Origin: a virus
Length of the DNA: 27,835 bases
Strand: one strand, 5' to 3'
IMG/VR virus record: IMGVR_UViG_3300023170_003561
Location: 1-27,835 of that record
The notes beneath the pieces were generated by a model. It saw only the letters and a program-made list of their open reading frames with translations, did no database searches and had not been told where the DNA came from. How positions within the stretch are numbered: the stretch's first letter is position 1; every line of letters begins with the position of its first letter. Of the stretch, positions 4,350 through 19,358 are shown piece by piece. Both the position numbers and the translations under genes were made by a program.

Positions 4350-4552
4350 AATACCTCTTTATAAGATTTGTTTACCGATTCAATAATTTGATCAATATTG
4401 TCATTTTCTTCAAATTGTTTTTCTCCATAGTATGGCCCCATCCAATGCATTAGGGTATACCATTTTCCGAATAGTGTTTTTTCGGTTTTTAAGGCAAATC
4501 CAACTTTTATTCTAGACCTTATATATTCATAAAGAGGACTACTTGATTGCAT
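4346..4552 (-). CDS. Uncharacterised small protein (68 aa)
   Basis: No family recognised. The 68-aa protein is rich in aromatic residues (LYEYIRSR, FGKWYTLMHWMGPYYGEKQF) and ends with a helix-prone DQIIESVNKSYKEVL. It overlaps the upstream CgeB-like glycosyltransferase by 14 nt and the downstream gene by 4 nt, which fits a real coupled gene rather than a chance frame. No membrane span or signal peptide is seen. Confidence 0.65.
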   Translation of the reverse strand: MQSSSPLYEYIRSRIKVGFALKTEKTLFGKWYTLMHWMGPYYGEKQFEENDNIDQIIESVNKSYKEVL

Positions 4553-5585
4553 CCTGATACTCCTTAATCTTCGGTTCTTTAATCCCGAAACCGTCTAATA
4601 TTTCTTCGATACGGTGAAAATTGGTATGGTTATCACACACCAACTTTCTTCCCGCCTCTGAAATAGACTTTCTGGCATGTTCATCTTCAAGGTATGTATA
4701 TATTAAATCCTTAAATTGATCAGGTGTTTTTGCATAAAGACACCCCCTCATATCTCCAACTTTTAATTCGCCATGTAGTGTTTTTTCCAGACCTTCAACA
4801 TAATCAGAAATAACAAAACCACCACAAAACAACACTTTGAATACACGCTCATTCACATCATATCCGTATTCTTGGGCGTGTGGCTCAGACAAGTTTGGAC
4901 AGATCTTAGATGAAGCAAACAAGTGTCTTACATTCTGATCTTCGATTGTTCCGCAATATCTATCCGTTTCAGTCCAAGGTTGATTTCCAAAAATCTTAAT
5001 ATTCAAACACCTATCATTACAGATAGGTAATAGATATTTATCAATCACTTGCCCCTTGTAGGGCCAGTAACCCCCAACAAAACCAATATCGCAAGCAAGT
5101 TCTGGAACATATTTAGCGTGTGCGTATGAGTTTATGTCAGCACACATCATAATTGATTTGACCGAGACTCCGGTTTCAGCCCATTTGTTGTGAGTATTTT
5201 GTAGTGCGTACTCTGGATAATGAATATGTAGAAACACTGGTTGACCAGTCTTTTCTTTCAACTCTTCTACAGCTCTCTTTTCTTCGTCTGTAGCTTTAAG
5301 AATACGAAATCTTTCATCTGTTTCCTGAGATCCCCAATCTGGAGCACGTAACCCAACCTTAAGGTGAGGTCTCTCTTTAATACACTCGATCACCGATTTA
5401 CTAAGATTGTATGTTTGCCCAAGGAAAATATCTGGCTCATACATATCAAAGGCGTCGTAAGCAGGAGTTTGTCCACTCCACCATAGTTTGGCTTCGTATC
5501 CGGGGATGGAATTAAAGGCGTTAGCCCAAGCTAGACGTTGATAATAGTGAGCATTTCCGTTATCGGATTGAATCATTATTTTCAT
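4539..5585 (-). CDS. CgeB-like glycosyltransferase (Glyco_trans_1_2 type)
   Basis: 348 aa, GT-B architecture. The N-terminal half begins MKIMIQSDNGNAHYYQRLAW. The C-terminal half contains ICPNLSEPHAQEYGYDVNER (228-247) and then FKVLFCGGFVISDYVEGLEK. That arrangement, with an N-E-R followed by FKVL.CGGF.ISDY, is the signature of the CgeB/Glyco_trans_1_2 domain. The final segment (YLEDEHARKSISEAGRKLV) is the usual C-terminal helix of the family. Such enzymes transfer sugars from nucleotide donors, and phages often carry them in glycan cassettes. It overlaps the nucleotidylyltransferase-like gene by 4 nt. Confidence 0.85.
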   Translation of the reverse strand: MKIMIQSDNGNAHYYQRLAWANAFNSIPGYEAKLWWSGQTPAYDAFDMYEPDIFLGQTYNLSKSVIECIKERPHLKVGLRAPDWGSQETDERFRILKATDEEKRAVEELKEKTGQPVFLHIHYPEYALQNTHNKWAETGVSVKSIMMCADINSYAHAKYVPELACDIGFVGGYWPYKGQVIDKYLLPICNDRCLNIKIFGNQPWTETDRYCGTIEDQNVRHLFASSKICPNLSEPHAQEYGYDVNERVFKVLFCGGFVISDYVEGLEKTLHGELKVGDMRGCLYAKTPDQFKDLIYTYLEDEHARKSISEAGRKLVCDNHTNFHRIEEILDGFGIKEPKIKEYQDAIK

Positions 5586-6301
5586 ATATTTACCTGTTCT
5601 TCTAAAAATTCCCTCATTGAATCGAGTTCAAATATTTTCATGTTTTTTGGCTCGTAACACTTGAACTCTCCTCCACATGAAATTATAGTATTCAAGAACT
5701 CGAAAGTCAATTGTTTCTTATTGAAATCAGAGTTGATATTGATATTTTTTTTCGCCGCTTTTAATTCATCACCAGTAAGATAAGCGATTTGACACCACCT
5801 CGGCTGATCTTTAAGTCCAAAAGAAAGATTTGAGGCAAGTTTATTGTCTTTGATCACAACTCCAACCTCTCTCTCATTCATCATTCCTAATGAATCAATA
5901 GCCAAGAAAGATCTTGAATAATCAGCGTTTCTTATCGTTTCCCCATTAAATATAATGTCTCCATGAATAAAAAGAACTTTATCATTCTTCGTATTGTTCA
6001 AAGCTAATCTCAGACTAGACGCAGCCCCCGTTTTTTCATAGAGTTCGTTTTCAACAATGCGAACATTTTTATACTTTTCAGTACGCTTGCTGATTCTGTG
6101 AGAATCGTACCCACAAACAACGATTATCTCACATCCATTGAAAGAATTATCAATAGTCTTGATTTGATGATCTATAATGCAGGAATTCTTGTATTTTATC
6201 AACGCTCTAGGTTCGTTTGTCTTTATACGATTTCCAACACCAGCAGATAACAAAACTACTGTTGGGTTAAGTCCCTGTCTCTTAATCTGAACTGTTGTCA
6301 T
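5582..6301 (-). CDS. Sugar-phosphate nucleotidylyltransferase-like protein (MobA/LicC-like fold)
   Basis: 239 aa. VVLLSAGVGNRIKTNEPRAL (15-34) is the NTP-binding loop of the nucleotidylyltransferase family, normally LxAGxGxR....PK.L. VLFIHGDIIF holds the Mg-binding Asp. The C-terminal MKIFELDSMREFLE resembles the second metal motif and closing helix of sugar-1-phosphate or choline-phosphate nucleotidylyltransferases. The consensus Lys in 'PK.L' is Arg here (EPRAL), which may alter or weaken catalysis. The likely role is activation of a sugar-phosphate or similar group for the surrounding glycosyltransferases. The start ATG lies directly after the stop of the upstream GT2 gene, and the two are coupled. 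Substrate not predictable. Confidence 0.75.
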   Translation of the reverse strand: MTTVQIKRQGLNPTVVLLSAGVGNRIKTNEPRALIKYKNSCIIDHQIKTIDNSFNGCEIIVVCGYDSHRISKRTEKYKNVRIVENELYEKTGAASSLRLALNNTKNDKVLFIHGDIIFNGETIRNADYSRSFLAIDSLGMMNEREVGVVIKDNKLASNLSFGLKDQPRWCQIAYLTGDELKAAKKNININSDFNKKQLTFEFLNTIISCGGEFKCYEPKNMKIFELDSMREFLEEQVNI

Positions 6302-7123
6302 TTAGCCACCCATGATTATTTGTGCATTCTGCTGAAAAATCTCTGGAGTCATTTGAAGACTTTGGTTGTCTCCGTGTTCTTTAGCCAGTGAAAGAGTTTC
6401 TGGCACATGAACCATAATACAATGATTAGACAATCTCAACCATAGATCGTAATCTTCGGTACATCCAATGAATCCCTCAGATTTTGGTCCGTGAAGCTTT
6501 GGATTATAGTACTCTTTTTCTTTTGCTACTTTCTTCAAGAATTCAACCTTGACAAGAGATCCGCTAGAGACTATGCATTTATTTCTAAGGCCCAACGCTG
6601 AATAAGGCTCTTTATGCTCTCTTTTTGTATAAAACTTATCGTCATATGTTTTCAGAATATCGTAGTCAGAATAAGCGACACCAATTTCCTTATGCTCCAT
6701 AAGTTTTTCGACAAGTCTAGATACTTTATTTGCATAGTATTCATCATCAGCGTCAATGATTCCTATAATCTTAGTCTTAGGAAACTTTCGTAGACCATAA
6801 TTTATTCCGACATTACGAGCAACACTAGCCCCTCTATTCTCTGTCATGATAAAGAGGAGGTTGACAGAATCAATGACTGTTTCTTCCATAGAAATTTTAC
6901 CACTATAGAAGGATTGATTTGTCTCCTTAGTTTCATAGCTGTCCTCATCGGCAAAGAACTCGTAATCAATCAGTTCTTGCGAACGATCTGTAGAACCATC
7001 ATCAACGATAACAAGATTAAGCTGACCTTTGTAATCCTGTTCTATAATGCTCTTTATTGCACTACGAACATAGTTCTCGTAATTATAGTTTGTGAGTATG
7101 ATTGTTACTTCTGGTTTTTTCAT
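6302..7123 (-). CDS. GT2-family glycosyltransferase
   Basis: 273 aa, a single GT-A domain. VTIILTNYNYENYVRSAIKS (6-25) is the classic GT2 N-terminus, followed by VIVDDGSTD (38-46). ENRGASVARNVGI (95-107) and the metal motif IIDADDEYY (122-130, D124-A-D126-D127) come next. The ED motif is CTEDYDLWLR (221-230) with the catalytic base around E223/D224. All key positions are intact, so it is probably active. An insertion of about 35 residues after the DDGS motif (about 57-90, acidic and Ser/Thr-rich) is longer than in compact GT2 enzymes. It overlaps the upstream Tat-signal gene by 4 nt. Confidence 0.92.
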   Translation of the reverse strand: MKKPEVTIILTNYNYENYVRSAIKSIIEQDYKGQLNLVIVDDGSTDRSQELIDYEFFADEDSYETKETNQSFYSGKISMEETVIDSVNLLFIMTENRGASVARNVGINYGLRKFPKTKIIGIIDADDEYYANKVSRLVEKLMEHKEIGVAYSDYDILKTYDDKFYTKREHKEPYSALGLRNKCIVSSGSLVKVEFLKKVAKEKEYYNPKLHGPKSEGFIGCTEDYDLWLRLSNHCIMVHVPETLSLAKEHGDNQSLQMTPEIFQQNAQIIMGG

Positions 7124-7377
7124 AGTTTTGTGTTACATCCTTCATTGGGTCCGAATAGACTAGAAGAGAAAGTTATATTTCCACTACTAGATCTAAAAGC
7201 ACCACCACTACATGTCGTAATAAAACCAGAACAGGGGATCGTATTAATATCAGGAGAATCCAAGGGTGGATACGATAAAACTTCCGGCTTTTTTTCAAAT
7301 TCTTCTGAGGCTTTAATTGCAGCAGGACCACCAACTACAGCACCAATCAATCCCCCTAAAAAGCTTCTTCTCTTCAT
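7120..7377 (-). CDS. Small exported protein with predicted Tat signal peptide
   Basis: 85 aa. The N-terminus MKRRSFLGGLIGAVVGGPAA fits a twin-arginine signal: RRSFLGG motif, a glycine/alanine-rich hydrophobic core and a small-residue region ending around IKA/SEEF (residues 21-27). The remaining ~60 residues are Pro/Ser/Gly-rich with three cysteines (C49, C56, C80) and no recognised domain. If exported it would act in the periplasm or on the cell surface. It could also be a virion or host-takeover factor whose N-terminus only resembles a signal. It lies in the middle of the glycosyltransferase run, overlapping the GT2 gene by 4 nt and with 1 nt between it and the previous gene. Confidence 0.65.
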   Translation of the reverse strand: MKRRSFLGGLIGAVVGGPAAIKASEEFEKKPEVLSYPPLDSPDINTIPCSGFITTCSGGAFRSSSGNITFSSSLFGPNEGCNTKL

Positions 7378-7378
7378 T

Positions 7379-7921
7379 TCACACAGCCCCCTTAACTTCT
7401 GAAAGTTCTCTTATTCTTTCCGCAAAAGTTCTTTTATCGACAGTTCCATCTGGATGAATTACAGGCTTGTTGCCATATAATTTCTCAAAAGCACGACAGT
7501 GGATCGTCATGCCGTGTAGTTCTTCGCCTTTATATGGGTCGATATAGAAAACTCCGTTACCAGTTTGAAGCAATTCGTTTAATTGGGAAAAAGCATTTTT
7601 AGGAATTTCCTTATTACTTTCAAATATCATAAGATATCCCATATTGTAACGATAGCATTCATCAACAATTTCAAGATCACGATGAACAAAGTCAAAGAGT
7701 TGAACGATATTGTATTCTATATTGGTCTTCTCTTTATTCTCTGAAAGAATCTTCATTGTTTCTTCTACAAACTCAGGTCTCTTAACACAAGAAATGATTC
7801 TCGTAGGTTTGAATTCCTGTTGTTCGAGATCTTTGATTCTATCTAGAATTAGACTTGGCTCTCGGTCTCTACTAATAAGTAAAACACCAATATTTGGAGT
7901 ACTATTCATTGGAATATTCAT
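7379..7921 (-). CDS. Small GT-A-like protein, possible degenerate glycosyltransferase
   Basis: 180 aa. The opening NIGVLLISRDREPSLILDRIKDLEQQEFKPTRI has the strand-helix-strand layout of a GT2 N-terminus, and MGYLMIFESNKEIPKNAFSQ sits where GT-A enzymes carry the DXD region. The expected aspartates are missing (FESN in place of D.D), and the protein is shorter than a full enzyme. It could be a lectin-like or regulatory relative. Function uncertain. It overlaps the next upstream gene by 4 nt. Confidence 0.6.
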   Translation of the reverse strand: MNIPMNSTPNIGVLLISRDREPSLILDRIKDLEQQEFKPTRIISCVKRPEFVEETMKILSENKEKTNIEYNIVQLFDFVHRDLEIVDECYRYNMGYLMIFESNKEIPKNAFSQLNELLQTGNGVFYIDPYKGEELHGMTIHCRAFEKLYGNKPVIHPDGTVDKRTFAERIRELSEVKGAV

Positions 7922-8325
7922 CGTTTTGTCACCATATATCCTTTAAAGTTTGCATTATATCCAGTATTTACAATCTTAAGTCCATTTTGAGAAACAAGGT
8001 TTGCAACAACATCTTCATTTAAAATGCTTTCTCTATTTCTGAGTAGTTCATTTACCTTTTCTATTTGAATTTCATCTCTCTCGTATTGAGGACAAATCAG
8101 AGACATATCAGTGTAATAAATGACAATCTGCCCCCCCATTCTCAATTTAGAGCATAGCAAAGAAAAAACATTAGGGAGTTGGTCGAACGAAATCGTCGAA
8201 AGAGTATCGTTAACAATAATCTCTTCTGCCTGTGCGTCGTCTACCAACAAATCCATCATCTTAAAATCAGAGACATGAACATATCCGTTCATCTCTGGTT
8301 CTGTTTTAGAGAAGTATACTTTCAT
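7918..8325 (-). CDS. Methyltransferase-like fragment (C-terminal half of class I fold)
   Basis: 135 aa. AEEIIVNDTLSTISFDQLPN followed by VFSLLCSKLRMGGQIVIYYT (55-75) matches motifs IV to VI of class I SAM methyltransferases: an acidic strand, a linking helix and the 'L+.GG.ivi' strand. The last ~35 residues fit the closing strands (NGLKIVNTGYNANFKGYMVTKR). No glycine-rich SAM-binding loop is present, and the protein is about half the usual size. Either it is a non-catalytic relative or it works with a partner. It overlaps the downstream gene by 4 nt and the upstream GT4 gene by 20 nt. Confidence 0.6.
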   Translation of the reverse strand: MKVYFSKTEPEMNGYVHVSDFKMMDLLVDDAQAEEIIVNDTLSTISFDQLPNVFSLLCSKLRMGGQIVIYYTDMSLICPQYERDEIQIEKVNELLRNRESILNEDVVANLVSQNGLKIVNTGYNANFKGYMVTKR

Positions 8326-9340
8326 AATCTTCTATTGTCCTATATAATAAGTTGTTCCACTGTTTTGAGAAGTTTTCAAGATTGTATTCTTGAATTGTTT
8401 CCTTTCCTTTTTGGCCTATTTCCTCGCACATTTCTGGGTCATGTATCAGTTTTTCAAGGTGAAATCTAAGAGTTTCTGGGTCGTTTGAAATGATTCCATT
8501 GACTCCATTTTCTATAATTTCTGGGATCATACATGTTTCAGTTGAGACAACTGCACAACCACAAGCCATTGCTTCCATGAGGGACATAGGGACCGGAGAA
8601 TGGAGAGAGCTATTAAAGAAAATCAACGACTCGTGGTACTTCTTTCGAAGATCCTGAGTTGAGTGAGCAGCCGTTGAATAGGGAGGGTTATTCCCTACTA
8701 GCTCTAACGGGAAATCGCATTCTCCAGTTTCCCTATTAAACCCTAAAGTTTCACACCAAAGATTCCAACCTAAACACCAATCTCTTTCGGGGAATAGATT
8801 AGCGACTGAGATTATTCGTTTCTTGCGATCTCTCTTGTAATCCCCCCAAAATTCAGTATCTAAACCATGTTTAATAACTACTGCATTATTTGCATCTGTC
8901 ATTCCCCACTGATTTCGGTTATAGTCCGATATGAAAACATATTTATCCGCGTCCGTAGCGATTAAATTAGCTCTTTGCTTATTAACGTCGTACCTAACAT
9001 CTGGCAAGACATGTACTAACATAATAATCGGTATATTATAGATGTTTGCAATTTTTTTAGCTTCGTGATATCTACCGCTGTCCTGACAGAGAACAAGGTC
9101 ATAATTGATATGCTCTGGAAGACTACTCATTTGGTGGTAGTTATTTGGTTGTATCCCATAGTCACTATTCCAAGTTTTTCCAACCTTGAGAGAGTAAAAA
9201 TTATGTCCAGTGTTCGACAATGACTGCTCATATCTCTCATGTGTGCAGAATGTGATTACATTTAGCGGAGTATCCTCATTCAACGAAGCTCGTCTAAGAA
9301 TTGTCCCAATTACAAAGTTATTTGCGTTAGCTACTCTCAT
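8306..9340 (-). CDS. GT4-family glycosyltransferase
   Basis: 344 aa, GT-B fold. The N-terminal domain contains DLVLCQDSGRYHEAKKIANI, and YVFISDYNRNQWG then VVIKHGLDTEFW (154-165) mark the interdomain hinge. RIISVANLFPERDW opens the C-terminal domain. SPVPMSLMEAMACGCAVVST (248-267) is the nucleotide-sugar-binding region. The second Glu of the EX7E motif is E256, but the first position (S248) is Ser instead of Glu. Other features are conserved (MIPEIIENGVNGII). Retaining GT4 enzymes usually use UDP- or GDP-sugars; the donor cannot be assigned. It overlaps the upstream GT4 gene by 4 nt. Confidence 0.87.
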   Translation of the reverse strand: MRVANANNFVIGTILRRASLNEDTPLNVITFCTHERYEQSLSNTGHNFYSLKVGKTWNSDYGIQPNNYHQMSSLPEHINYDLVLCQDSGRYHEAKKIANIYNIPIIMLVHVLPDVRYDVNKQRANLIATDADKYVFISDYNRNQWGMTDANNAVVIKHGLDTEFWGDYKRDRKKRIISVANLFPERDWCLGWNLWCETLGFNRETGECDFPLELVGNNPPYSTAAHSTQDLRKKYHESLIFFNSSLHSPVPMSLMEAMACGCAVVSTETCMIPEIIENGVNGIISNDPETLRFHLEKLIHDPEMCEEIGQKGKETIQEYNLENFSKQWNNLLYRTIEDYESILL

Positions 9341-10446
9341 GATAATTTTTCCTTGATGATTTCACCGACTTTTTCGTGACTAAATTCCATAGCCTTTTTC
9401 TTTTGCTCATCACACCTTTTGTCATATTCGTGAATTGATAGAATATGCTCACTATAGATCTCTCTCATTTTATCCCTTAAAGCGGAAACTGAAATTTCTC
9501 TCCAATATCCTCTTCCGGTATGCAGTTCAGGAGGTGAAGACATTGAATTATAGCACGGTTCCCAACTGGCAGCTACTGAATTATTACCAGTATCAACATA
9601 GTCTTCCATTCCATTATCGCTAGTATAAATTACAGGAATACCCATAACTCCAGCCTCAACAGCAGGTATACAACAGGCTTCCCCTCTTGAGGGCATCACA
9701 AAACAATGAGCGTTTTTCAAAAGTCCAATATAGTCGATTCTATCTAGTCTATCTGCAACTATAACATCGCCACCATATCTCTTTCTAATTTTTAACCTAT
9801 CCTTGATCTGGTTCGTATAATCATTAAGAATTTGGAACTGGTCTCCCCTGCTAACGTTTGGCATACTAGTTTTAATAACTAGCTTCACATTTTCTTTTGG
9901 ATGAAATTCTGTATGAAAAGCCTTTAGTAAAGCCTCTATATTTTTTCGTTCGACACATTCCCCAACAAAGATAAAATTGAAGCTTTTTTGTAGCTCAAAA
10001 ACCTCGGTCTTTCTATCTCCAATATCATATTCGTCCACATTAATACAATGAGGAACAATTTCGATTGGGATTTTTACCTTACTAAGTAATGAGGTCTCTT
10101 TACCCTTTTGATTTGGAACCCATGCTTCATCAAGTTGATTAATGAATTTAGGCCACATAGCTTGAGTAATATCTGTAGTCTCTGTTTCGTAAAGACAGAT
10201 GTTTTTAAAATTACTGTTATAGCTAAATAGCGGAGGTAAAGTATGCTGAATAACGGTATCAGCCCCTCTTGAACTTTTAGACTCTAATTCAAGAATTCTT
10301 TCTGGAACCGTTACCGGCTGATTATTAAAGGTTATACATCTGGGAACAACGTCTATTCCAACCTTGTCCATAGCGAGAATATTATTGAGTGCAGCATTGC
10401 CCCAACCAGTCCCGTCTTTGTAGTTACCTATGTAGATTACTTTCAT
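9337..10446 (-). CDS. GT4-family glycosyltransferase
   Basis: 369 aa, GT-B fold. The N-terminal MKVIYIGNYKDGTGWGNAAL carries the glycine-rich acceptor loop. EAWVPNQKGKET and EIVPHCINVDEYD lead into the C-terminal Rossmann half (FNFIFVGECVERKNIEALLK, 156-175). The EX7E motif is intact as E256-ACCIPAV-E264 within MPSRGEACCIPAVEAG, and GIPVIYTSDNGMEDYV follows. It is a probable active retaining glycosyltransferase. It overlaps the next gene upstream by 23 nt and the one downstream by 4 nt, so the GT4 genes form a coupled run. Confidence 0.9.
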   Translation of the reverse strand: MKVIYIGNYKDGTGWGNAALNNILAMDKVGIDVVPRCITFNNQPVTVPERILELESKSSRGADTVIQHTLPPLFSYNSNFKNICLYETETTDITQAMWPKFINQLDEAWVPNQKGKETSLLSKVKIPIEIVPHCINVDEYDIGDRKTEVFELQKSFNFIFVGECVERKNIEALLKAFHTEFHPKENVKLVIKTSMPNVSRGDQFQILNDYTNQIKDRLKIRKRYGGDVIVADRLDRIDYIGLLKNAHCFVMPSRGEACCIPAVEAGVMGIPVIYTSDNGMEDYVDTGNNSVAASWEPCYNSMSSPPELHTGRGYWREISVSALRDKMREIYSEHILSIHEYDKRCDEQKKKAMEFSHEKVGEIIKEKLS

Positions 10447-12097
10447 TATTTACCTGTTCCCATCTTGCTTGTTCTAGCTTATTGAATTGATCCCTACTGT
10501 GAGAAAGCTGTTCGTAGGCTTTATGCTTATCATAATCAACAAAATTATTTTTGTTATCCCTAACGTGACTTTCATTGAAGAAGTAAATTTCGTTTGTAGT
10601 ACTCTTCAAGTGTCCTCGATAAGTCAAGTCTCTAACCAATTTTCTCCAGTGGAAACCATGAACCCAACTTGGCTTACGCAGTACCTTATCAAACAAATAA
10701 GTCGCCTGATCCTTTGGCGAGGTGATATTGCTCGGAACTGGTGGACCCGCATCTAAAATCTCTGGTGGGGATAGCCAAGTTGTACTCATATCTTCCGAGA
10801 TAACAGGCTCATTCATGAAGAAATTCATCCACTTATTGGCTGTCCTATCCCAATTATAGTGCTTAAGGGCGAGTTCTCTTGATCTTTCTCCATATTTTTT
10901 CCTTTTTTCTGAAGACATGTTGTATATCTCTCTAAAAAGTCTAACTGCTTCAGCGTTATTAGGTAATGCCTTTTTCAAGCCAGTTTCCGATTCGTATGGC
11001 TTATGCAATACAGGAATCATAAAGGCTTCAATATTGTGTCCTACAGAACTCATTGCGGAATAGTCAACTGTCATGACTGGAATACCACAATACGCTGCTT
11101 CGACCTGAGGCATACCAAACCCTTCATTTGTCGCATATTGGATATAGCAATCAAAAAGGTTATAGATATGAGCTAGTTCTTCATCGTTTATTGGATTATG
11201 AGTGCCAATCAAACTTAGCTTAAAGTTTCCACACCCTCTACAGAAGTTGTTTACGTCGTGGAAGAAATTACACGTTAAATATCCACAATTAGTACACTTA
11301 TACGTGAATAAAACCCTGTCAGTTAGCCCATATTCTATTAATAGCTTAGGAATATCCCATCCAAGGTCAGGATAATAAGTATGACAGTAAAGATAAGCGT
11401 TTTTGTTGTCCTTGCTTCTTGAGATAAAATCTTTGAATGTTCGGAAAAGTTCTGGATATAGCTTACGCTTTTGGTTACGCATTACCGTTCCAAAGATTAC
11501 GCTATCGTCAATAACTCCAAACTTTTCTCTAGATTCAGGGATTGGCCTAAAAGAATCTGAGGCGGCGGGAGATGCAACATCAATGATTCTAATGTGATCA
11601 CTTTGAGATTCGAGAACCTGTTTTCCATACTCCGAGTATGTAAACACCGCATCAGCATCAATATATGATTCAATCCACATTTCGTGCTGCGGTTCCGAAT
11701 CAACCGTTGGCATTGGAACCCACTTATAGTAATCTCTAAAGGCCGACCTTGATTTCTGCTGATATTCATGCATCCACCAGTCTCGAATATCCATAACAAA
11801 ATCAGGCTTCACTTTAATCAGGGCGGCATTAAAGTTGTATTCTCCAAACTCAAATGCATCGTAGGAATTATATTCCTCTAAAAGAACTGGATCAGTAGGC
11901 TTGTTGATAATTACATCCCAAGGAGTGTTATCGATAGCCTCTCTATCCTCATTTGCATCACAAAAACAAGCTAATTCAGCAACATAGAAAAGACCAGATT
12001 CATAGAATCTTCTTAAGATCTCTCGACTATATACTGAATAACCTGTTGATTTTGTTGTCGATTCTGTGACAAAGAGGATTCTTTTTTTTCTGTCCAT
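10424..12097 (-). CDS. GT4-family glycosyltransferase with inserted zinc ribbon
   Basis: 557 aa, the largest transferase in the cluster. The N-terminal half opens RILFVTESTTKSTGYSVYSR. FTYSEYGKQVLESQ and VIFGTVMRNQKRKLYPELFR (200-219) mark the hinge and the start of the C-terminal Rossmann half. The EX7E motif is E325-GFGMPQV-E333. Between them lies a four-cysteine ribbon, C268-x2-C271 and C286-x2-C289 (extra C276), directly after YGLTDRVLFTYK. About 130 residues follow the GT domain (430-557) and have no recognised fold. The start ATG has GAGGT 8 nt upstream and lies only 14 nt after the ssb terminator. It is the first gene of the glycan block. Catalytic residues look intact. Confidence 0.88.
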   Translation of the reverse strand: MDRKKRILFVTESTTKSTGYSVYSREILRRFYESGLFYVAELACFCDANEDREAIDNTPWDVIINKPTDPVLLEEYNSYDAFEFGEYNFNAALIKVKPDFVMDIRDWWMHEYQQKSRSAFRDYYKWVPMPTVDSEPQHEMWIESYIDADAVFTYSEYGKQVLESQSDHIRIIDVASPAASDSFRPIPESREKFGVIDDSVIFGTVMRNQKRKLYPELFRTFKDFISRSKDNKNAYLYCHTYYPDLGWDIPKLLIEYGLTDRVLFTYKCTNCGYLTCNFFHDVNNFCRGCGNFKLSLIGTHNPINDEELAHIYNLFDCYIQYATNEGFGMPQVEAAYCGIPVMTVDYSAMSSVGHNIEAFMIPVLHKPYESETGLKKALPNNAEAVRLFREIYNMSSEKRKKYGERSRELALKHYNWDRTANKWMNFFMNEPVISEDMSTTWLSPPEILDAGPPVPSNITSPKDQATYLFDKVLRKPSWVHGFHWRKLVRDLTYRGHLKSTTNEIYFFNESHVRDNKNNFVDYDKHKAYEQLSHSRDQFNKLEQARWEQVNNESNLHR

Positions 12098-12160: not shown

Positions 12161-12502
12161 TTATGCCGTTTCAGCGGCAGCTCTCTTCTTCGCACCAAAG
12201 TAGAAGTTCTTGACTTTGAAGACGGTCTTTTTACGTGTTGTACCGTCATTCTTGTCTTCCCAAGTTTCAGGCTTTGCTCTAGACTCAACAATAAGTTGAT
12301 CGCCCTTTTTTGCATAGGTAGAGAGCACATTGCCCATGTTACCCCAACAATCGAAATCGAAATAATCAACATCGATCTTATCTTCGCCATTAGATCTATA
12401 ACGATCCTCAACAGCGAGACTAAACTTGGTGACACTACTTGTGCCAACATCACGACTTTCTGGATCTCCAGTAAGTCTTCCTACAAACGTACAATGATTC
12501 AT
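12161..12502 (-). CDS. ssb: Single-stranded DNA-binding protein
   Basis: 113 aa with a single OB-fold. MNHCTFVGRLTGDPESR is the canonical SSB opening, followed by VTKFSLAVEDRYR, YFDFDCWGNMGNVLSTYAKK (47-66) and GDQLIVESRAKPETWEDKNDG. It coats single-stranded DNA during replication and recombination. The length is close to the bare OB domain. The C-terminus ends KKRAAAETA and lacks the acidic tail with a DDDIPF-type tip that cellular SSBs use to dock partner proteins, so partner recruitment must differ. GAGGA lies about 10 nt before the ATG. An upstream ATGATG in another frame opens a 20-codon frame that does not look coding. The gene is flanked by a hairpin upstream and a terminator downstream. 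Confidence 0.92.
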   Translation of the reverse strand: MNHCTFVGRLTGDPESRDVGTSSVTKFSLAVEDRYRSNGEDKIDVDYFDFDCWGNMGNVLSTYAKKGDQLIVESRAKPETWEDKNDGTTRKKTVFKVKNFYFGAKKRAAAETA

Positions 12503-12551: not shown

Positions 12552-13061
12552 TTATCCTTGTTTTAATTCATCGATTATGAAAAGTTGCCTATTTTTAGAA
12601 ACAGCACCTTTCACAATCACAACACTTCCTTCATAAAGAAAAGCCTTGTTTTTTCTATGGTATTGATCGGGAAAAAGAACGGCATTATCAAGTCTTCCGC
12701 TTGAGTCTTCAAGTTTTACGAATGCCATTAGTTGTCCGGGGTTTTTACCATTCTTTGTCTTAATCTCATTATAGCTCGAAACTGAAGCACATAAAATTAA
12801 ATCTTTGTTAATTGGAGCATTTTCCAAAACTGTTCTACATTCGTACTGAGTATTGATTCCAACAATGTCAGAAATAGAATATGAAAGAGAAACACCAAAA
12901 TAAATTTCTTCTTGCTCACAGATATACCTTATATCATCTTCGAGAGTTTGCATCGGGTTATCGAGAGATCTTTTAATCTCTGTAACCTTTTTCAATCTAT
13001 TTGCCGTAGTTCTTCTATCGGTATTTATGAGTTTTCTTATATGATCACTCAGTGTCTGCAT
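12552..13061 (-). CDS. OB-fold protein, separate C-terminal part of DNA polymerase III alpha
   Basis: 169 aa from the ATG at 13061; a GTG at 13079 would add six residues. After a helical N-terminus, IRYICEQEEIYFGVSLSYSI (44-63) matches the DnaE segment just before the OB domain (the 'E.E.LG..LS.HP' region). Residues 85-165 read as its OB-fold (tRNA_anti): ILCASVSSYNEIKTKNGKNP, then AFVKLEDSSGRLDNAVLFPD and YEGSVVIVKGAVS. The 854-aa polymerase upstream ends exactly before this region, so the pair looks like one polymerase alpha subunit split into two genes. The OB domain of DnaE contacts single-stranded template. It overlaps the next upstream gene by 17 nt. An independent OB-fold nucleic-acid-binding protein is the alternative. 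Confidence 0.75.
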   Translation of the reverse strand: MQTLSDHIRKLINTDRRTTANRLKKVTEIKRSLDNPMQTLEDDIRYICEQEEIYFGVSLSYSISDIVGINTQYECRTVLENAPINKDLILCASVSSYNEIKTKNGKNPGQLMAFVKLEDSSGRLDNAVLFPDQYHRKNKAFLYEGSVVIVKGAVSKNRQLFIIDELKQG

Positions 13062-13329
13062 ATTTATTTTTACCTTCACAACAGTCTCTATAAGGAGCGG
13101 GAATAGCGGAAGTCTTTATGGTTGGTTTTCCATTTTCGTCCAGATCCATATACTCTATATCCACCGATGGTTTACCGCAAGGACAAGGATCTATCCTTTT
13201 AGGGAGCATCTTCATAATCGGATACCCCTCCTGAACAGCAGTGCTTCTCTTACCAGAATGAGGCCAAGTTTGCCGTCTCATATCGTATTTTGTAATATCA
13301 CCGTAATAATCGTGTTGTTTACTTCTCAT
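13045..13329 (-). CDS. Uncharacterised protein with cysteine pairs (94 aa)
   Basis: No family recognised. The 94-aa protein has a basic, aromatic N-terminus (MRSKQHDYYGDITKYDMRRQ) and a CPCG motif (C49, C51) followed by a second cysteine pair (C83, C84). The spacing PCPCGKP...YRDCCEG could bind zinc, as in other small phage proteins with 'CPCG...CC' endings. It overlaps the next upstream gene by 11 nt and the OB-fold gene by 17 nt, so it is part of the replication chain. Confidence 0.65.
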   Translation of the reverse strand: MRSKQHDYYGDITKYDMRRQTWPHSGKRSTAVQEGYPIMKMLPKRIDPCPCGKPSVDIEYMDLDENGKPTIKTSAIPAPYRDCCEGKNKYADTE

Positions 13330-13681
13330 CTTTTCTCCAAACTGTATGAGGGTTTCTTTCTAAATGATTAAAGATACCGCTTTCTTCTATATACTCATCC
13401 AATTTACTCATATTGAGTTTATGTCCGCTAACCTTAAACTCTCTATAGCATGGAACATGACCCTCTTTTAATTTTCGGTAATAATGTAAGGTCAAGCAGT
13501 TGTCATTACATAGTCTTTTTAGTTCTTCTTCAATTATGTAGTGTTCTGCTTCAGTTAGGTTCAAACACCCATAAAATTCACCATTCTTAAAATATGAGAA
13601 TTTGGAAACATCTATTGGATCTCCAACAATGGCTTTTTCTGGTATTCTCTTGCCTCTAGGTATCGGTAGCTTCTCTCCCAT
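13319..13681 (-). CDS. Uncharacterised phage protein (120 aa)
   Basis: No family recognised. I place the start at the ATG at 13681, which has GAGGG five to six bases upstream; a TTG at 13693 is the longer alternative and carries that same GAGGG inside its coding sequence. The protein has a basic N-terminus, a segment FKNGEFYGCLNLTEAEHYII (about 31-50) and a cysteine-containing NDNCLTLHYYRKLKEGHVPC (about 59-78). No signal peptide or membrane span is seen. Its leader contains half of a 28-bp tandem repeat derived from the end of the previous gene. Confidence 0.65.
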   Translation of the reverse strand: MGEKLPIPRGKRIPEKAIVGDPIDVSKFSYFKNGEFYGCLNLTEAEHYIIEEELKRLCNDNCLTLHYYRKLKEGHVPCYREFKVSGHKLNMSKLDEYIEESGIFNHLERNPHTVWRKDEK

Positions 13682-13697
13682 TTTTTCCCTCAATAAA

Positions 13698-13753
13698 TAG
13701 CTGGTGGTACATACTTAGGATAAACTAGGTGGTGGCACATCCTTAGGATAAAC
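13698..13753. repeat. 28-bp imperfect tandem duplication at a gene 3' end
   Basis: Two adjacent 28-bp units, 13726-13753 and 13698-13725, agree at 25 of 28 positions by my alignment. Both read GTTTATCCTAAG at their minus-strand 5' ends. The first unit encodes the current C-terminus (VYPKDVPPP then SLS and stop). The second would encode VYPKYVPPAIY and stop in the shifted frame. Confidence 0.85.
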
Positions 13754-14059
13754 ACATTGTGGATAATTATCTTCAAGCGTATGCTCAAAAGTATAATTAG
13801 GGTTCAAGGGGGTAGATCCGTCAGTTAATGTTGCAGTTGTGGGGAATATATCATAATTTTTATTCGGCTTATCCGTCATAATCACGCTATTGTAATAAGC
13901 TGGTGGCTTTTCAATTTCGTGAGTGAAAACCAAATCAAGCTGCTTTTTTACTTTTTCAACTTGATAGCTATCTAACATGACATAATCTCCATTTACGTCA
14001 TTATTTCCCGTTATTTCAAAAAAACCCTGTAACCAATAACAAAAATCTCTAGGCGTCAT
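13715..14059 (-). CDS. Conserved phage protein with FCYWLQGFFE motif (114 aa)
   Basis: The N-terminus MTPRDFCYWLQGFFEITGNN resembles a short motif I know from many phage hypothetical proteins, where it forms an N-terminal helical element; its function is not known to me. The middle (VEKVKKQLDLVFTHEIEKP) is a charged helix, and the C-terminal third is Pro/Asn-rich and probably disordered. The gene ends inside a 28-bp tandem duplication that shifted the frame, so the last three residues (SLS) are probably a new ending. The start overlaps the exonuclease stop by 4 nt. Confidence 0.7.
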   Translation of the reverse strand: MTPRDFCYWLQGFFEITGNNDVNGDYVMLDSYQVEKVKKQLDLVFTHEIEKPPAYYNSVIMTDKPNKNYDIFPTTATLTDGSTPLNPNYTFEHTLEDNYPQCVYPKDVPPPSLS

Positions 14060-14775
14060 ACGTACATCCCCGTTTTAGCAAAAGCATTTTCAAAGTTAGT
14101 TTTGTTAGCAATATTTCTATGATATTTAAGAAACTTGATAAAGATGTTCGCCGTATCTTTAACGTCCTGCAATGCGTCGTGAGCCTTGTCGAAACTTTCT
14201 TCTGGAAAACCTAACCATCTACGATTATTATCCATTGAGATAGATTTAACATCAGGATTTGATTCAGTCCACATCCAAACGTTCTGCATTACATCTACAC
14301 TCCTGATTTTATTGAATAGGTTAGGATTTCCATCCTCTCCAACCTGTTTACCTCTCACTCCAACAGAACTGAATTCTCCACGACACAATCTATCTATGAT
14401 TGGAAGGTCGAATCCAACTATATTATAGCCAACAGGAATAGCAGCGTTAAAAGAATTACTAGTTTTATTGAATTTTTTTACCCATTTTACAAAATTATTC
14501 CAGACAATATCTAGTTCCGGTGCTTGATCTATTTGCTCTCTCGTTTTTCCTGTGACTTTTAGAGCACCATCTTCAAGTGGGTCAAGACCTAGTTCAATAG
14601 CTTTTTCATCATCAATAACGGCACGAATTTCACTGTTAAACTCTCCCCCAGACTTGATTTCAAGCGTTCTAGGGTCAAGCATTACAGCGGCAAGCTGCGT
14701 TGGTTGGGTCTTGTGCGGATTACGGCTCCCTGTTTCGAAATCGAAGACACAATATGGCGTAAAATTAAGTGGCAT
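14056..14775 (-). CDS. DnaQ-like DEDDh 3'-5' exonuclease (proofreading type)
   Basis: 239 aa. Exo I is VFDFETG (10-16, D12 and E14). Exo II is YNIVGFDLPIID (117-128, D123). Exo III is AHDALQDVKDT (198-208) with H199 and D204, so all four acidic residues and the histidine of the DEDDh family are present. Such enzymes remove mismatched 3' nucleotides. The polymerase III alpha-type enzyme nearby has no exonuclease domain, so this is the natural candidate for its proofreading subunit (an epsilon analogue). AAGGA lies about 7 nt before the ATG. A second role as a general nuclease cannot be excluded. Confidence 0.9.
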   Translation of the reverse strand: MPLNFTPYCVFDFETGSRNPHKTQPTQLAAVMLDPRTLEIKSGGEFNSEIRAVIDDEKAIELGLDPLEDGALKVTGKTREQIDQAPELDIVWNNFVKWVKKFNKTSNSFNAAIPVGYNIVGFDLPIIDRLCRGEFSSVGVRGKQVGEDGNPNLFNKIRSVDVMQNVWMWTESNPDVKSISMDNNRRWLGFPEESFDKAHDALQDVKDTANIFIKFLKYHRNIANKTNFENAFAKTGMYV

Positions 14776-14777
14776 AT

Positions 14778-15077
14778 TTATTCCTTTTCTCTTTCGTAAA
14801 TTTCATTTAAAATCATCTCTATATCTTCTAGTTCACGATATATATTATCTATTTTTGACCTAATTGATCTAATATTACCTCTCGTGACAGTATCCTCAAG
14901 AACATTCTGTGTTGCTTCCTCACTTCCACACATTCTTAATTGTTCAATAGCCTCTGGAGATATCCATAGATCATTCGTTTTTGGATCATTATTTAAAAAC
15001 ATGGTTTCAAAATGACCATTGGGACACTTGAATTCTTCGGTGATTTTTTCTTCACATTGAATGCACCATTTATTCAA
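14778..15077 (-). CDS. Small zinc-finger plus coiled-coil protein (99 aa)
   Basis: No family recognised. The N-terminus MNKWCIQCEEKITEEFKCPN has a C5-x2-C8...C18-x3-H22 arrangement suited to one zinc ion. The C-terminal 40 residues (RSIRSKIDNIYRELEDIEMI) form a strongly helical, heptad-like region likely to oligomerise. A DNA- or protein-binding adaptor is plausible in this replication context but is inference. It overlaps the SLOG gene by 4 nt, and 2 nt separate it from the exonuclease start. Confidence 0.65.
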   Translation of the reverse strand: MNKWCIQCEEKITEEFKCPNGHFETMFLNNDPKTNDLWISPEAIEQLRMCGSEEATQNVLEDTVTRGNIRSIRSKIDNIYRELEDIEMILNEIYEREKE

Positions 15078-15499
15078 AACTCTACCTCCGCAGCCGCATC
15101 CAAGATATCACTCTCATAAGGAGCGTGACAATACAGTTCAAGCTCTTTTTCCTTTGCCTTACGAATCATGTCGGCACTATCATTAGACCCTGTATCAATA
15201 GCGATACAAGCTTCGGCGTACATAGTCATTTTTTCGTTACGAATAGGTCCAGCTTTAGCATTGTACTTACCATAAGCATTCTCTTTAACAATAGCTTCTG
15301 GATGATCAATATCCTTCCATTCAGCTTTGAACTTTACGCACTTAACTCCGTTCTCTCTAGCCCATCTTTCACCGAGAGCATCAGCACCTTTGGCAGCACC
15401 GATAACTACTTCCGTAATTTCTATGCCACTTTTTTCTATTGCTAAACACAACTCCTCATAATCAGTAAAATCACGAGGTCCACAAATAATCGTTTTCAT
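15074..15499 (-). CDS. SLOG-fold protein (DUF2493/YspA-like)
   Basis: 141 aa from the ATG at 15499, which has AAGGA about 8 nt upstream; the longer frame to 15535 adds 12 residues without a good ribosome binding site. MKTIICGPRDFTDYEELCLA is the signature of the DUF2493/YspA family. VVIGAAKGADALGERWAREN (31-50) is the nucleotide-binding G.a.GaD loop, and GPIRNEKM (84-91) is the third conserved block. These Rossmann-like proteins are thought to bind nucleotides or nucleotide-derived ligands and are common in phages, but their biochemical role is unknown. Here it sits between the polymerase and exonuclease genes. Confidence 0.85.
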   Translation of the reverse strand: MKTIICGPRDFTDYEELCLAIEKSGIEITEVVIGAAKGADALGERWARENGVKCVKFKAEWKDIDHPEAIVKENAYGKYNAKAGPIRNEKMTMYAEACIAIDTGSNDSADMIRKAKEKELELYCHAPYESDILDAAAEVEF

Positions 15500-15500
15500 T

Positions 15501-15755
15501 CTATTTATCCTTCCTATCGTATTTCCTGCACTCATCTATAAAAAACCTTACTGCCTTATTCAAATCATTGAACAAAACATCTCCTTCATACATCTTTGTT
15601 TCCTTATTGTATTTGGAGCCAGATAAATTTACCTGATATGGCTTATTCGTCTTAAATGGATACCTGAGTACTTTCGAAAGATCACAGATAGTGTTACCTC
15701 TGTATTCGACAGCTCCACCAAACATTACAATTCCCTTTATATTCTCAAACTTCAT
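15501..15755 (-). CDS. Uncharacterised small protein (84 aa)
   Basis: No family recognised. The 84-aa protein has a beta-rich first half (KGIVMFGGAVEYRGNTICDL) and ends with a basic helix (AVRFFIDECRKYDRKDK). It overlaps the 3' end of the polymerase gene by 11 nt, and its stop is 1 nt from the SLOG start, so it is co-translated with replication genes. Function not inferable. Confidence 0.65.
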   Translation of the reverse strand: MKFENIKGIVMFGGAVEYRGNTICDLSKVLRYPFKTNKPYQVNLSGSKYNKETKMYEGDVLFNDLNKAVRFFIDECRKYDRKDK

Positions 15756-18309
15756 AATTATCCACCATCCAGACTACCTCATTTTTGTTTAGGCTTTTCA
15801 AAGTTTCATATTCATAGAGCATTCTATTTCTGCTCACATTACTATTTTTCCCTAATAGCGATCCTGTGCATATCAAAGGAACACTAGCTCTCTTGTTGAG
15901 GCCAGAAAGAATCAACATGAGAATTTCGATCCAAGTAAAATCCTCTACCTTCTTACCTAATTTTAGCTCGGCTTCATCGATTTTTCGAAAAAAATCATCA
16001 CAATCTTTATCTCCGACGCTTTTTATTCTAGAAAGACCGTAGAAAATAGAGTTCTTTTCTTCATCATAATGAAAATCACGGTAGAGATTAGAAAGATTTG
16101 GGGGATTAATATCAATTGAGAATGTTCTACAATCCATAACAAGATCGCGAACCTCATCTTTCCACATTGGTTTTTTGTGTGCATGGTTCAGATATTTCTC
16201 AAAAAATATAGGAGTATCGTGAACCTTACAATAGGCCGACCAATAAGCATTTACAGCATAAACCACACTATGGCTAGCGTTGAACGAATATCTGTTTGCC
16301 TTTTCGATATTATCAAAAATATCCATAGCGATTTTAGCGTCTACAAGTCCAACCTCTTCACAACCATCAATGAATTTTTGCTTTAGCTCTTTCATAAGCT
16401 TTGCATTTTTCTTACCAATAGCTTTTCTCAAGTCATCAGAAAGTTCTTCGGAAAATCCCGCAAGCTTAGTTGCGATTTTCATCGCCTGTTCTTGATATAC
16501 AATAATCCCATAAGTATCTTTTAGGATAGGTTCAAGAGAAGGGTGAAGATAATCAAAACTAGCACCAAATTTACGATCAACGTAGTGCTGTGTCATACTC
16601 TTACCTTCGAGAGAAGCACCTAACGCCCCCGGTCTTAATAAAGCAGAGAGGTCTGACAATTCCTTGATACTTCTAGGTTTAACTTTTGCTGACCAAGTTT
16701 GACCAGTATCTGAGTCTAATTGAAATACTCCCTTAGTTCTTCCTTCACACATCAGATCCCAAACCTCTTCATCATCAAAATTATTCAACTCAGAAAGTGT
16801 TTTAATCTTTTTGCTCTTGTTTACGATCCCCAAGATTTTACTGAGAATATCTACCCCAAGAATATCGAGTTTAAGTCCACCCATATACTCGACTTCTTTC
16901 ATAGTGATCGTACTTACAATATCGCCGTCATCATCAATACGAACTGGCATAAAGTTCTTAATTGGATCTGGAGAAATAACAACAGCAGCAGCATGTTTTC
17001 CGTGCTGTCTATAGATTCCTTCAATTTCTACAGCAAGCTTGAATACTTCCGCATAATCACCAACATAATGAAATTCACCGTCATCATTAGATACTACTCG
17101 ACAATATTTGTCCATTATTTTTGGACGATGTTTTAGAGTCCATAGTAGCAGAGAAGTCTCTTCTACATCTTCCATCTGGTCTTCGACCTTTGCCTTTTCT
17201 GGCATCATCTTAGTGATTTCCTTAATCTCACCAAATGGAAGATCGGTTTTTTGCTTGAACGCAATCTCTAGAGCAGAACGAGCCTGAAATGTACCAAACG
17301 TTCCAATATGACACACATTCTCATTACCATACCTCTGTTTAATATATTCTAGAACATCTGCTCTGTTTTCAGACGGAATATCCACATCAATATCTGGAAG
17401 CTCAACTCTCGTAGCGGTGTTTCTTGATTTATTATAGAAACGACCGAACAGAAGGTTGTATTCGATAGGATCTGTTTGAGTGACCCCAATTAGATACGAG
17501 ACAAGGCAACCGGCAGCACTCCCTCTCCCCGGTCCCGGCAACCACCCTTGATCGCGAACGTAATTCACAATGTCCCACACGATCAGAAAATATGAAGAAA
17601 GTCCAGCACCTTGCAGTACCTCAAGTTCATATTTTACTCTATCGGCGTACTCCTTTTCTTTTTCAGGGGTGTCTATTTTGTCTGTACCCTTTAGCTTTTC
17701 ACGCCAACCGTCTCTACAAAGCTGTCTTAGAAACTCGTCTGGGGAAAGATTGTTTGGGCAAGAAAAAGAGGGGAGGATAGGTCTAGACGCCAATCCATAA
17801 TCCTCAACGCTATCTGCAAGTTCTTTTGCTCTTAGGTACTCTTCATTAGTTTCATATTCGGAAACAAAATCAGATTCACTAAGAACTTTCCTTTTCTCTT
17901 CAGGGGTTGTTTCTTTATTAGAGTTTACAAGTAGCTCTAGTTCCGCATAGTCTCCATCAAAGTAGTTTGCGGTCTTATCAGAAAAAAGACGAAGGTTTTT
18001 ATTGAGTTGAAGATCAGCAATCTCTGACTCAGAGACGGTTTCTCCAAGTCCCATCTTGGAACAGACAGAGATGAGAGTATTCAGTCCATCTCTATTAAGA
18101 GCATAAAATGGAAGTCCGTCGAGTTCCACTCCAATTACCGGCTTGACTTCTTCATCCTTACACGCCTTGTAGAAGTCTACCATCCCCGATATCGTATTTT
18201 TATCGCAGATCCCAACAAACTTCCACTCTTTTTCTTTTGCTAATTTTGCAAGCTGTTTAGGCTTAATAAAAGAAGAGTGTAACGAATTGTGAGTGTAGTT
18301 TCTTAGCAT
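15745..18309 (-). CDS. DNA polymerase III alpha-type polymerase (PHP-palm-fingers, OB domain absent)
   Basis: 854 aa, a C-family replicative polymerase. A short PHP-like domain (about 1-70) precedes the palm: LPGPGRGSAAGCLVSYLIGV (257-276), then the acidic motif PDIDVD (305-310) and KLDILG with D482, giving the expected three catalytic aspartates. Fingers motifs follow: YRQHGKHAAAVVIS (433-446), GVFQLDSD (527-534), GIIVYQEQAM (601-610) and YSFNASHSVVYA (674-685). The protein ends just past the thumb/finger region at NYEV. The clamp-binding, OB and tau-binding regions of cellular DnaE (about 1160 aa) are missing; an OB part appears in a separate gene at 12552-13061. GGGGAG precedes the start, 5 nt after the previous stop. 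No separate sliding clamp or loader is seen here. Confidence 0.93.
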   Translation of the reverse strand: MLRNYTHNSLHSSFIKPKQLAKLAKEKEWKFVGICDKNTISGMVDFYKACKDEEVKPVIGVELDGLPFYALNRDGLNTLISVCSKMGLGETVSESEIADLQLNKNLRLFSDKTANYFDGDYAELELLVNSNKETTPEEKRKVLSESDFVSEYETNEEYLRAKELADSVEDYGLASRPILPSFSCPNNLSPDEFLRQLCRDGWREKLKGTDKIDTPEKEKEYADRVKYELEVLQGAGLSSYFLIVWDIVNYVRDQGWLPGPGRGSAAGCLVSYLIGVTQTDPIEYNLLFGRFYNKSRNTATRVELPDIDVDIPSENRADVLEYIKQRYGNENVCHIGTFGTFQARSALEIAFKQKTDLPFGEIKEITKMMPEKAKVEDQMEDVEETSLLLWTLKHRPKIMDKYCRVVSNDDGEFHYVGDYAEVFKLAVEIEGIYRQHGKHAAAVVISPDPIKNFMPVRIDDDGDIVSTITMKEVEYMGGLKLDILGVDILSKILGIVNKSKKIKTLSELNNFDDEEVWDLMCEGRTKGVFQLDSDTGQTWSAKVKPRSIKELSDLSALLRPGALGASLEGKSMTQHYVDRKFGASFDYLHPSLEPILKDTYGIIVYQEQAMKIATKLAGFSEELSDDLRKAIGKKNAKLMKELKQKFIDGCEEVGLVDAKIAMDIFDNIEKANRYSFNASHSVVYAVNAYWSAYCKVHDTPIFFEKYLNHAHKKPMWKDEVRDLVMDCRTFSIDINPPNLSNLYRDFHYDEEKNSIFYGLSRIKSVGDKDCDDFFRKIDEAELKLGKKVEDFTWIEILMLILSGLNKRASVPLICTGSLLGKNSNVSRNRMLYEYETLKSLNKNEVVWMVDNYEV

Positions 18310-18314
18310 TATCT

Positions 18315-19358
18315 TTAACTCCCCGGTGCATGATAGTAAGAGATATCGAAGTCATCTCTTTTAAGACTCTTCATTGTTTCATCAAGTCCCACATATTTAA
18401 CACTTGCCTCAACAAAATCACAGATTCTAGTGTTTGTTCCGGGCCAATTTTCCTTACCGTACCTACACATAAAACACTTATTTTTCTCGGGTTTCCCGTC
18501 TGCCATTATCTTGTTTGAATACTTCACGCAACTTGGAAGATCATTCTCCAAAACCTGAGTATACTTCTTTTTCAGTTTTTCCATGAAAATTTCTTCATGT
18601 TCGTCATCAAAGCAGAAACTAAAAGCACCACCATCCCGAATAAAATATATCGTCATGATAATGTTATATTCAGGATACATTTTTCTAAGAGCATAATAAT
18701 AAAGAAGTAGTTGAGGATCTTGATCGAGATATTCGTAATCTTTCTCCTCTCCAGTCGCCCAATTCTTTCTAGCTCCAGTTTTGTAATCTATCACTTGTAA
18801 AGTGTTCTCGTCTTCTTTAACAACTAGATCGATTGTGCCTTTTAGACTCAGATATCCAGTCATCTTAGTTCCGTCTGGTAAGACCTGATCTAATTTTGCC
18901 CAATCCTCTTTAATTTCAATATCAAAGTGTTGTTCTGGCTTGAAAATTTCTTGATTACGAGGATCATAGCGACCATCTTTAAACGTTAAAGCTTCATTAA
19001 GCCACTCTACACAAAATTTCCAGTCTGCATTTGTATAATCTTTCTCACATTTAGAAGTGTAGTATTCGTAACACTCTTCCAACATTCTATCTACAAATTC
19101 TTGAGTTCTTAATTCTGACTTGTTGATTTTGATTTCACCAACAGCATCATCATCTAAGATCAATTTTCTCTTTTTTGGATTTTCCTGCTCGTAGAGTTTG
19201 AGTCCCGCCAAAATTTCCATAACCTTATGAATTACGGTTCCTTTGTTTGCGGCTTTCCCAGATCCTCCATGAATCCCAAGATTGTAAGATATGAAATATT
19301 GCATTTCGCACATATCATATCCGTTCATGCTCGAACTTCTAAAGTAATTAGCATACAT
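18315..19358 (-). CDS. Cas4/RecB-type PD-(D/E)XK nuclease with Fe-S cysteine cluster
   Basis: 347 aa. The nuclease core includes H44 (GTVIHKVMEIL), D177 (GTIDLVV), D191-Y-K193 (VIDYKTG) and a QxxxY motif at Q216...Y220 (QLLLYYYAL); this is the RecB/Cas4 branch of the PD-(D/E)XK superfamily. C17 near the N-terminus together with C295, C298 and C313 near the C-terminus form the four-cysteine cluster that binds [4Fe-4S] in AddB and Cas4. It likely processes DNA ends in replication-linked recombination. No CRISPR array or other Cas gene is present, so I do not call it Cas4. It overlaps the dNMP kinase by 1 nt (TAATG). Confidence 0.88.
   Translation of the reverse strand: MYANYFRSSSMNGYDMCEMQYFISYNLGIHGGSGKAANKGTVIHKVMEILAGLKLYEQENPKKRKLILDDDAVGEIKINKSELRTQEFVDRMLEECYEYYTSKCEKDYTNADWKFCVEWLNEALTFKDGRYDPRNQEIFKPEQHFDIEIKEDWAKLDQVLPDGTKMTGYLSLKGTIDLVVKEDENTLQVIDYKTGARKNWATGEEKDYEYLDQDPQLLLYYYALRKMYPEYNIIMTIYFIRDGGAFSFCFDDEHEEIFMEKLKKKYTQVLENDLPSCVKYSNKIMADGKPEKNKCFMCRYGKENWPGTNTRICDFVEASVKYVGLDETMKSLKRDDFDISYYHAPGS

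Follow-up and report, generated by a model that had tools for sequence, protein, structure and literature searches.

The window examined here (the whole 27.8-kb stretch of IMG/VR record IMGVR_UViG_3300023170_003561) is a genome fragment of an uncultivated marine phage, described below as the window virus, whose longest copy reaches 54 kb (L255). Two of its genes probably encode, as judged from homology, one DnaE-type replicative polymerase in the form of two polypeptides, an 854-amino-acid (aa) catalytic protein and a small detached protein that carries the OB fold. The assembly of the two, the role of the OB protein and the history of the arrangement are what we infer from this starting point. 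A sequence-only reading had placed both open reading frames (ORFs) on the minus strand and about 2.7 kb apart, and both were recovered there (positions are collected in the table below).

By homology, the 854-aa product is a C-family polymerase of the DnaE type, and its sequence runs no further than the HhH region. It matches the Pfam families PF07733 (1.6e-69) and PF17657 (1e-43), as well as the PHP family PF02811 (3.8e-11), although the latter match is limited to residues 2-85 and the domain is shortened. At the two PHP ligand positions that were checked, H12 and D14 of the Escherichia coli enzyme correspond to Y and H. In contrast, the catalytic aspartates D306, D308 and D482 align with D401, D403 and D555 of E. 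coli. The NCBIfam model TIGR00594 matches at 7e-161 but is covered just to position 894 of 1022, and the matches to Taq and E. coli Pol III alpha in the PDB, with E-values down to 6e-90, end near residue 770; the match to HHH_6 (0.048) falls below the cut-off. Hence the claim of the sequence-only reading that this protein contains palm and fingers and stops before the OB domain is borne out by the Pfam matches and by the incomplete coverage of TIGR00594. In summary, of the features of DnaE this ORF keeps the palm with its three catalytic aspartates, the fingers, the HhH region and an N-terminal PHP domain, and the C-terminal OB domain of the DnaE kind is supplied from outside the ORF by the separate 175-aa protein.

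Profile and fold comparisons indicate that this small protein is the missing C-terminus of the 854-aa polymerase. When the C-terminal ends of polymerases from related phages were built into a profile of 241 positions, the OB protein matched it over positions 67-236 (E=1.8e-40) and the C-terminal end of the catalytic protein over positions 6-69, with no gap and no real overlap, and therefore the two proteins are exactly complementary. The best NCBIfam match of the OB protein is the DnaE model PRK07373 (residues 98-171, 1.1e-7), and a profile of 44 C-terminal segments retrieved residues 947-1057 of E. coli Pol III alpha as its top match among all PDB chains (3e-7). Likewise, the AlphaFold2 model of the OB protein (mean predicted local distance difference test, pLDDT, 88.8) has DnaE of Mycobacterium tuberculosis as its best Foldseek match (156 columns, 1.3e-5), generic OB folds following at 1e-3. 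The ORF may start at a GTG at 13079, giving 175 aa and an overlap with the upstream gene, or at an ATG at 13061, giving 169 aa, and the similarity to relatives begins at the ATG. The 169-aa product had been described from sequence as a pre-OB segment followed by a DnaE-like OB fold, and the C-terminal profile, PRK07373 and Foldseek all concur. In fact, the profile search places the protein in the DnaE OB family rather than in an unrelated one, and no close relative was found with a full-length DnaE beside this gene, the corresponding segment being there the C-terminus of the fingers ORF.

The position of the break was mapped in L114, a near relative that served as the main reference for this purpose (L114, L102, L026 and the like are labels of related loci). 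It falls approximately at residues 353-356, in a loop flanked by helices 341-353 and 357-367 in the model of the L114 fingers-HhH-OB protein (pLDDT 89.3). The window polymerase ends in ...MVDNYEV and the OB protein begins with MQTLSDHIRKLIN, the continuous sequence of L114 reading ...LQENYDSS HNFVQSLDNMIN, so that no residue is missing.

Relatives were collected by scanning IMG/VR with the window polymerase, the OB protein, the nuclease and the exonuclease, which gave at least several hundred loci, overlapping between scans. Clustering of the polymerases at 92% identity yielded, among the matches listed, at least 97 clusters in which DnaE is broken between palm and fingers (palm-split), nine fused clusters and one cluster for the window virus. 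In nearly all close relatives the order is a PDDEXK nuclease, a PHP+palm ORF (about 525-640 aa), a small gene, a DEDDh exonuclease, a fingers+HhH+OB ORF (about 520-560 aa), the single-strand DNA-binding protein (SSB) and a glycosyltransferase; L026 (5975-7849 and 8706-10328) and L114 (4454-6046 and 6930-8492) may serve as examples. The fingers ORF of these phages terminates in exactly the segment that is a free OB protein in the window. The cassette of the window follows the same order, but palm, fingers and HhH form one ORF, the OB domain stands alone past the exonuclease, and a SLOG gene and several small genes are extra. With c in first place, P for PHP and palm, x for the exonuclease, F for fingers, H for HhH and O for OB, the close relatives are c-P-x-FHO and the window virus is c-PFH-x-O. 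When related phages were compared for fused and split states, as the sequence-only reading had suggested, splitting turned out to be common, but at the palm-fingers junction; the four scans returned, among the matches listed, only copies of the window virus with PFH and O apart. The palm-split group consists of uncultivated phages with contigs of up to 231 kb and a DEDDh exonuclease gene in the gap, and no phage with a palm-split DnaE was found among the top INPHARED matches.

The window polymerase is 44-46% identical to the nearest palm-split members over its whole length, its exonuclease is 57% identical to that of L114, and its PD-(D/E)XK nuclease shows 41% identity to those of L026 and L023. 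The linker between palm and fingers has 26 residues in the window versus 14+12 across the break of L114. The exonuclease gene stands between the two polymerase parts in the window and in the relatives alike. A homologue of the 84-aa gene follows the palm ORF in relatives; in the window the start of this gene (15755) overlaps the stop of the polymerase (15745) by 11 bases. An 11-base overlap is also found between the palm ORF of L114 and its small gene.

Phylogenetic trees were consistent with this picture. In the tree of palm plus fingers the window joins a 16-member palm-split subgroup that includes L114 and L102 (support 99/97), and subgroup and window together join the remaining palm-split phages, apart from fused DnaE (100/99). 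The single-part trees agree in placing the window with the same subgroup (palm 96/88, fingers 99/97), and therefore the fused ORF of the window is not a patchwork of distant sources. In the exonuclease tree the window belongs to a set of three rows with two members of the palm-split subgroup (97/96). Because the trees nest the window with palm-split phages, we hypothesize that the palm-fingers break is old in the group, and that in the lineage of the window it was probably healed, the break having shifted to the HhH-OB junction. In the ancestor of the group, palm and fingers would already have been separate, with the exonuclease gene between them; in the window lineage palm and fingers, with HhH, would have become one ORF again, and the OB part alone would have stayed downstream of the exonuclease. 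The central claim of the sequence-only reading, a DnaE divided over two genes, is thus upheld by profile, fold and synteny, but not as a simple cut of a cellular DnaE, since the whole phage group is already split elsewhere with the same exonuclease in the gap; a moved breakpoint is the most likely description of the state seen in the window.

Several observations weigh against this history. In approximately unbiased (AU) tests, a clade of all palm-split rows without the window was barely rejected for palm plus fingers (p=0.046), and it was not rejected for the palm (0.34), the fingers (0.13) or the nuclease (0.19); moreover, the branch of the window is long (1.4-1.8). It is conceivable, though in our view rather improbable, that the state of the window is the older one, the ancestor having had PFH and O apart or being unsplit, and that the palm-fingers break arose later and repeatedly in the relatives. 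The single-part AU tests (p 0.13-0.34) are compatible with such a course of events and the long branch would suit it. Nevertheless, an identical break between palm and fingers, enclosing the same small gene and exonuclease, would have to originate at least twice; this history is also disfavored by the combined AU test (the p of 0.046 given above) and by the exonuclease tree, in which the window groups with two palm-split phages of the subgroup. We hold it to be moderately likely that a C-family polymerase which had earlier been divided at the palm-fingers junction was joined up again at this site and recut before the OB domain, the exonuclease gene being kept in the gap. On this view the core replicase would consist of modules that can be separated and whose limits move within a single group of phages, every form being multi-subunit.

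In DnaE, the OB domain lies C-terminal to the core and is taken to hold the single-stranded template. The 854-aa protein, with its degenerate PHP, palm, fingers and HhH, would bind primer-template and nucleotide and appears to have all that is needed for nucleotide transfer, and the 175-aa protein would guide the single-stranded template by means of its pre-OB helices and OB fold. The two are expected to assemble non-covalently at the loop between the two helices, as in the palm-split relatives, whose parts must assemble for any activity, and as in the T4-like gp43A/gp43B. Since the PHP domain is degenerate and its ligands are lost, the separate DEDDh exonuclease is the likely proofreader of the split polymerase, and the phage SSB would also work alongside. 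The split enzyme looks like the replicase of these phages, because the large relatives (201-231 kb) contain one PF07733 match per contig and no match to PolA, PolB or the beta clamp was found in ten related contigs of up to 231 kb, which may be incomplete. A point on the other side is that the genome of the window virus, being a fragment, may encode a second polymerase elsewhere.

It is unlikely, but should be considered, that the OB protein descends from DnaE and has since become independent, acting as an additional single-strand binding or recruitment factor beside SSB, with the 854-aa polymerase working without an OB domain. Some bacterial DnaE3 and Thermotogae DnaE have no recognisable OB domain, so that a DnaE of this kind is viable (PMC3919608), and the OB gene adjoins the SSB gene. 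Against such a role, the pre-OB helices are retained together with the OB fold, the homology spans the entire segment up to the break, and in the relatives this segment stays attached to the fingers.

A decaying or mis-assembled gene, leaving a broken polymerase, is very improbable, even though the break is found, among the matches listed, in one virus only. The region is present in five IMG contigs, one of which has just the polymerase half, and these differ by 6-15 substitutions, with no indel across up to 5,758 bases, the substitutions mostly lying at spacings of multiples of three bases; mis-assembly or a frameshift is ruled out by these five concordant contigs, and no frameshift was found between the two parts. 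Furthermore, the catalytic residues are intact and both ORFs are open, with full homology and no segment missing. Trans-splicing, by which a split intein or a trans-spliced intron would join the parts covalently, is still less probable. Some relatives do have split inteins in the same polymerase, but there the inteins are plainly seen, whereas in the window the end of the polymerase and the start of the OB protein sit at the homology boundary, with no extra sequence on either side and, as the sequence-only reading had noted, no intein. With homology running to the break on both sides and no intron found at the locus in an Rfam search, both an intein and an intron at the break are ruled out.

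The assignment of the OB protein itself has weaker spots. A single-sequence search with the protein alone gave no DnaE match in the PDB and no match in 50,697 phage records, and its PF01336 match is under the curated cut-off; the protein is assignable by profiles, single-sequence searches being insufficient. That it belongs to an unrelated OB family, as the generic PF01336 match and the many OB folds with similar Foldseek scores after the first might suggest, is hardly credible in view of the E-value against the phage DnaE C-terminus, which includes the pre-OB region, and of DnaE being on top in the NCBIfam, PDB-profile and Foldseek searches; the C-terminal profile and the Foldseek result rule it out.

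The genes of the locus are listed in the table. The exonuclease, SLOG and small genes which the sequence-only reading had seen between the two parts are confirmed by the ORF list and by the RNase_T and PF10686 matches. The SLOG gene is not located between the polymerase parts in L114 or L101, and the three small genes are absent from this place in L114; the 124-aa small protein had no match in Pfam. Directly downstream of the replication block, at 611-12097, lies a long array of glycosyltransferase, sugar-nucleotide and methyltransferase-like genes, which continues in the 54-kb copy.

Table. Features of the split polymerase locus in the window
Feature	Position	Strand	Basis
SSB, immediately downstream of OB gene, as in relatives	12161..12502	minus	PF00436 5.1e-20
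OB protein, C-terminal portion of DnaE as a separate product with pre-OB helices and OB fold; 175 aa, or 169 aa when started at ATG 13061	12552..13079	minus	profile, PRK07373, AlphaFold2/Foldseek
Group of three short ORFs (114, 124 and 94 aa) separating exonuclease from OB gene	13045..14059	minus	ORF list
DEDDh 3'-5' exonuclease, candidate proofreading subunit	14056..14775	minus	RNase_T 3.8e-8; PHROG 'DNA polymerase exonuclease subunit' 5.6e-21
SLOG (YspA-like) protein, encoded between catalytic and OB genes	15074..15535	minus	PF10686 9.7e-15
84-aa protein, function not assigned	15501..15755	minus	37% identity to L114 6036-6260
Catalytic DnaE-type protein of 854 aa with palm, fingers, HhH and a short degenerate PHP; ends before OB	15745..18309	minus	Pfam, NCBIfam and PDB matches; catalytic D306/D308/D482
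Palm-fingers junction inside polymerase (residues about 486-512), where the gene break of all close relatives falls	16774..16854	minus	alignment with L114 and others
PD-(D/E)XK nuclease, immediately upstream of polymerase, as in relatives	18315..19358	minus	PF12705 3e-21

Further variation was observed among the other phage polymerases. Split inteins occur in the polymerase of L134 (2931-4316 / 5068-5991), L155, L170, L041 (13916-14839 / 15675-16835), L148 and L160, at the sites GPGRG|S in the palm and SFNK|S/H in the fingers; added to the palm-fingers split, they result in some polymerases being made from three ORFs. The fingers ORF of L170 (3634-6018, 795 aa) contains an insertion of about 240 aa within the fingers, perhaps an intact intein. 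In a deeper palm-split branch (L026 8706-8840 and many others) the fingers ORF has a conserved N-terminal extension with the motif YxCGCxF, a possible zinc or contact element toward the palm protein, which the subgroup of the window does not have. In L023 (11960-12943) two genes, one pilin-like and one ThyX-like, stand between exonuclease and fingers ORF; the former, which we take to resemble a DUF1559-type pilin of Planctomycetes, is a possible hint at the host; host information was also sought in genome contigs, where two contigs of metagenome-assembled genomes came up, both uninformative in this respect. In the cultured Alicyclobacillus phage MMB025 (L016 5104-9466) an endonuclease gene cuts DnaE into 735 aa and 286 aa, elsewhere in the fingers. 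Two entries labelled Staphylococcus phage (L013, OR844993.1) and Pseudomonas phage (L015, OQ572403.1) have DnaE genes of chromosomal bacterial look, that of L013 being followed by a pyruvate-kinase-like ORF, and are probably bacterial DNA under a phage name.

Among known systems, the group 2.2 jumbo phages have, next to a family B polymerase (PolB), a minimal DNA polymerase III alpha that is split over two genes and whose products are believed to reassemble (Iyer et al. 2021, PMC7824862). It resembles the enzyme of the window in being a phage C-family polymerase made as two proteins from separate genes. However, it is reduced to nucleotidyltransferase and template-binding parts, other Pol III domains being lost, and is accompanied by PolB, whereas the window enzyme has PHP (degenerate), palm, fingers, HhH and OB, and is broken before the OB domain; no PolB or PolA was found in the ten related contigs, the genome of the window virus itself being incomplete. 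The window enzyme consequently does not fit the minimal jumbo-phage type of two catalytic subdomains plus PolB. The palm-split phages (L114, L102, L026 and others) share with the window gene order, domains and the exonuclease between the parts, but their break lies at palm/fingers with the OB domain joined to the fingers, and the window has palm and fingers in one ORF. The T4-like split PolB gp43A/gp43B, whose two polypeptides co-purify and are active (PMC2988022), is likewise a replicative phage polymerase in two polypeptides, yet of the B family and with a break tied to a homing endonuclease or an untranslated insert, the window enzyme being of the C family. Cyanobacterial DnaE also derives from two genes, but its halves are joined into a single chain by an intein, and the window has no N- or C-intein at the break. 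The DnaE of Moorella phage MTATph1 and Geobacillus phage GBK1 have the same domain order and end right after the OB domain, without the C-terminal domain, but each is a single unbroken ORF as opposed to the two of the window. The searchable open-access literature yielded no description of a free OB subunit of DnaE, nor of a palm-split phage group. A split C-family polymerase as such is already known, and the break before the OB domain with a free OB protein is a new variation.

The usual view of replicative polymerases is that of single chains under strong constraint. Among the phages described here, an entire uncultivated group (at least 97 clusters at 92% identity) appears to rely on a DnaE interrupted at one domain boundary, and the lineage of the window on one interrupted at another, so that two natural cut points show which domain junctions of DnaE tolerate separation. 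Since the OB domain of the window virus is a protein of its own, its contribution can be tested directly by supplying or omitting it, and the different cut site in close relatives suggests that a replication enzyme can be dismantled and rebuilt in the course of evolution.

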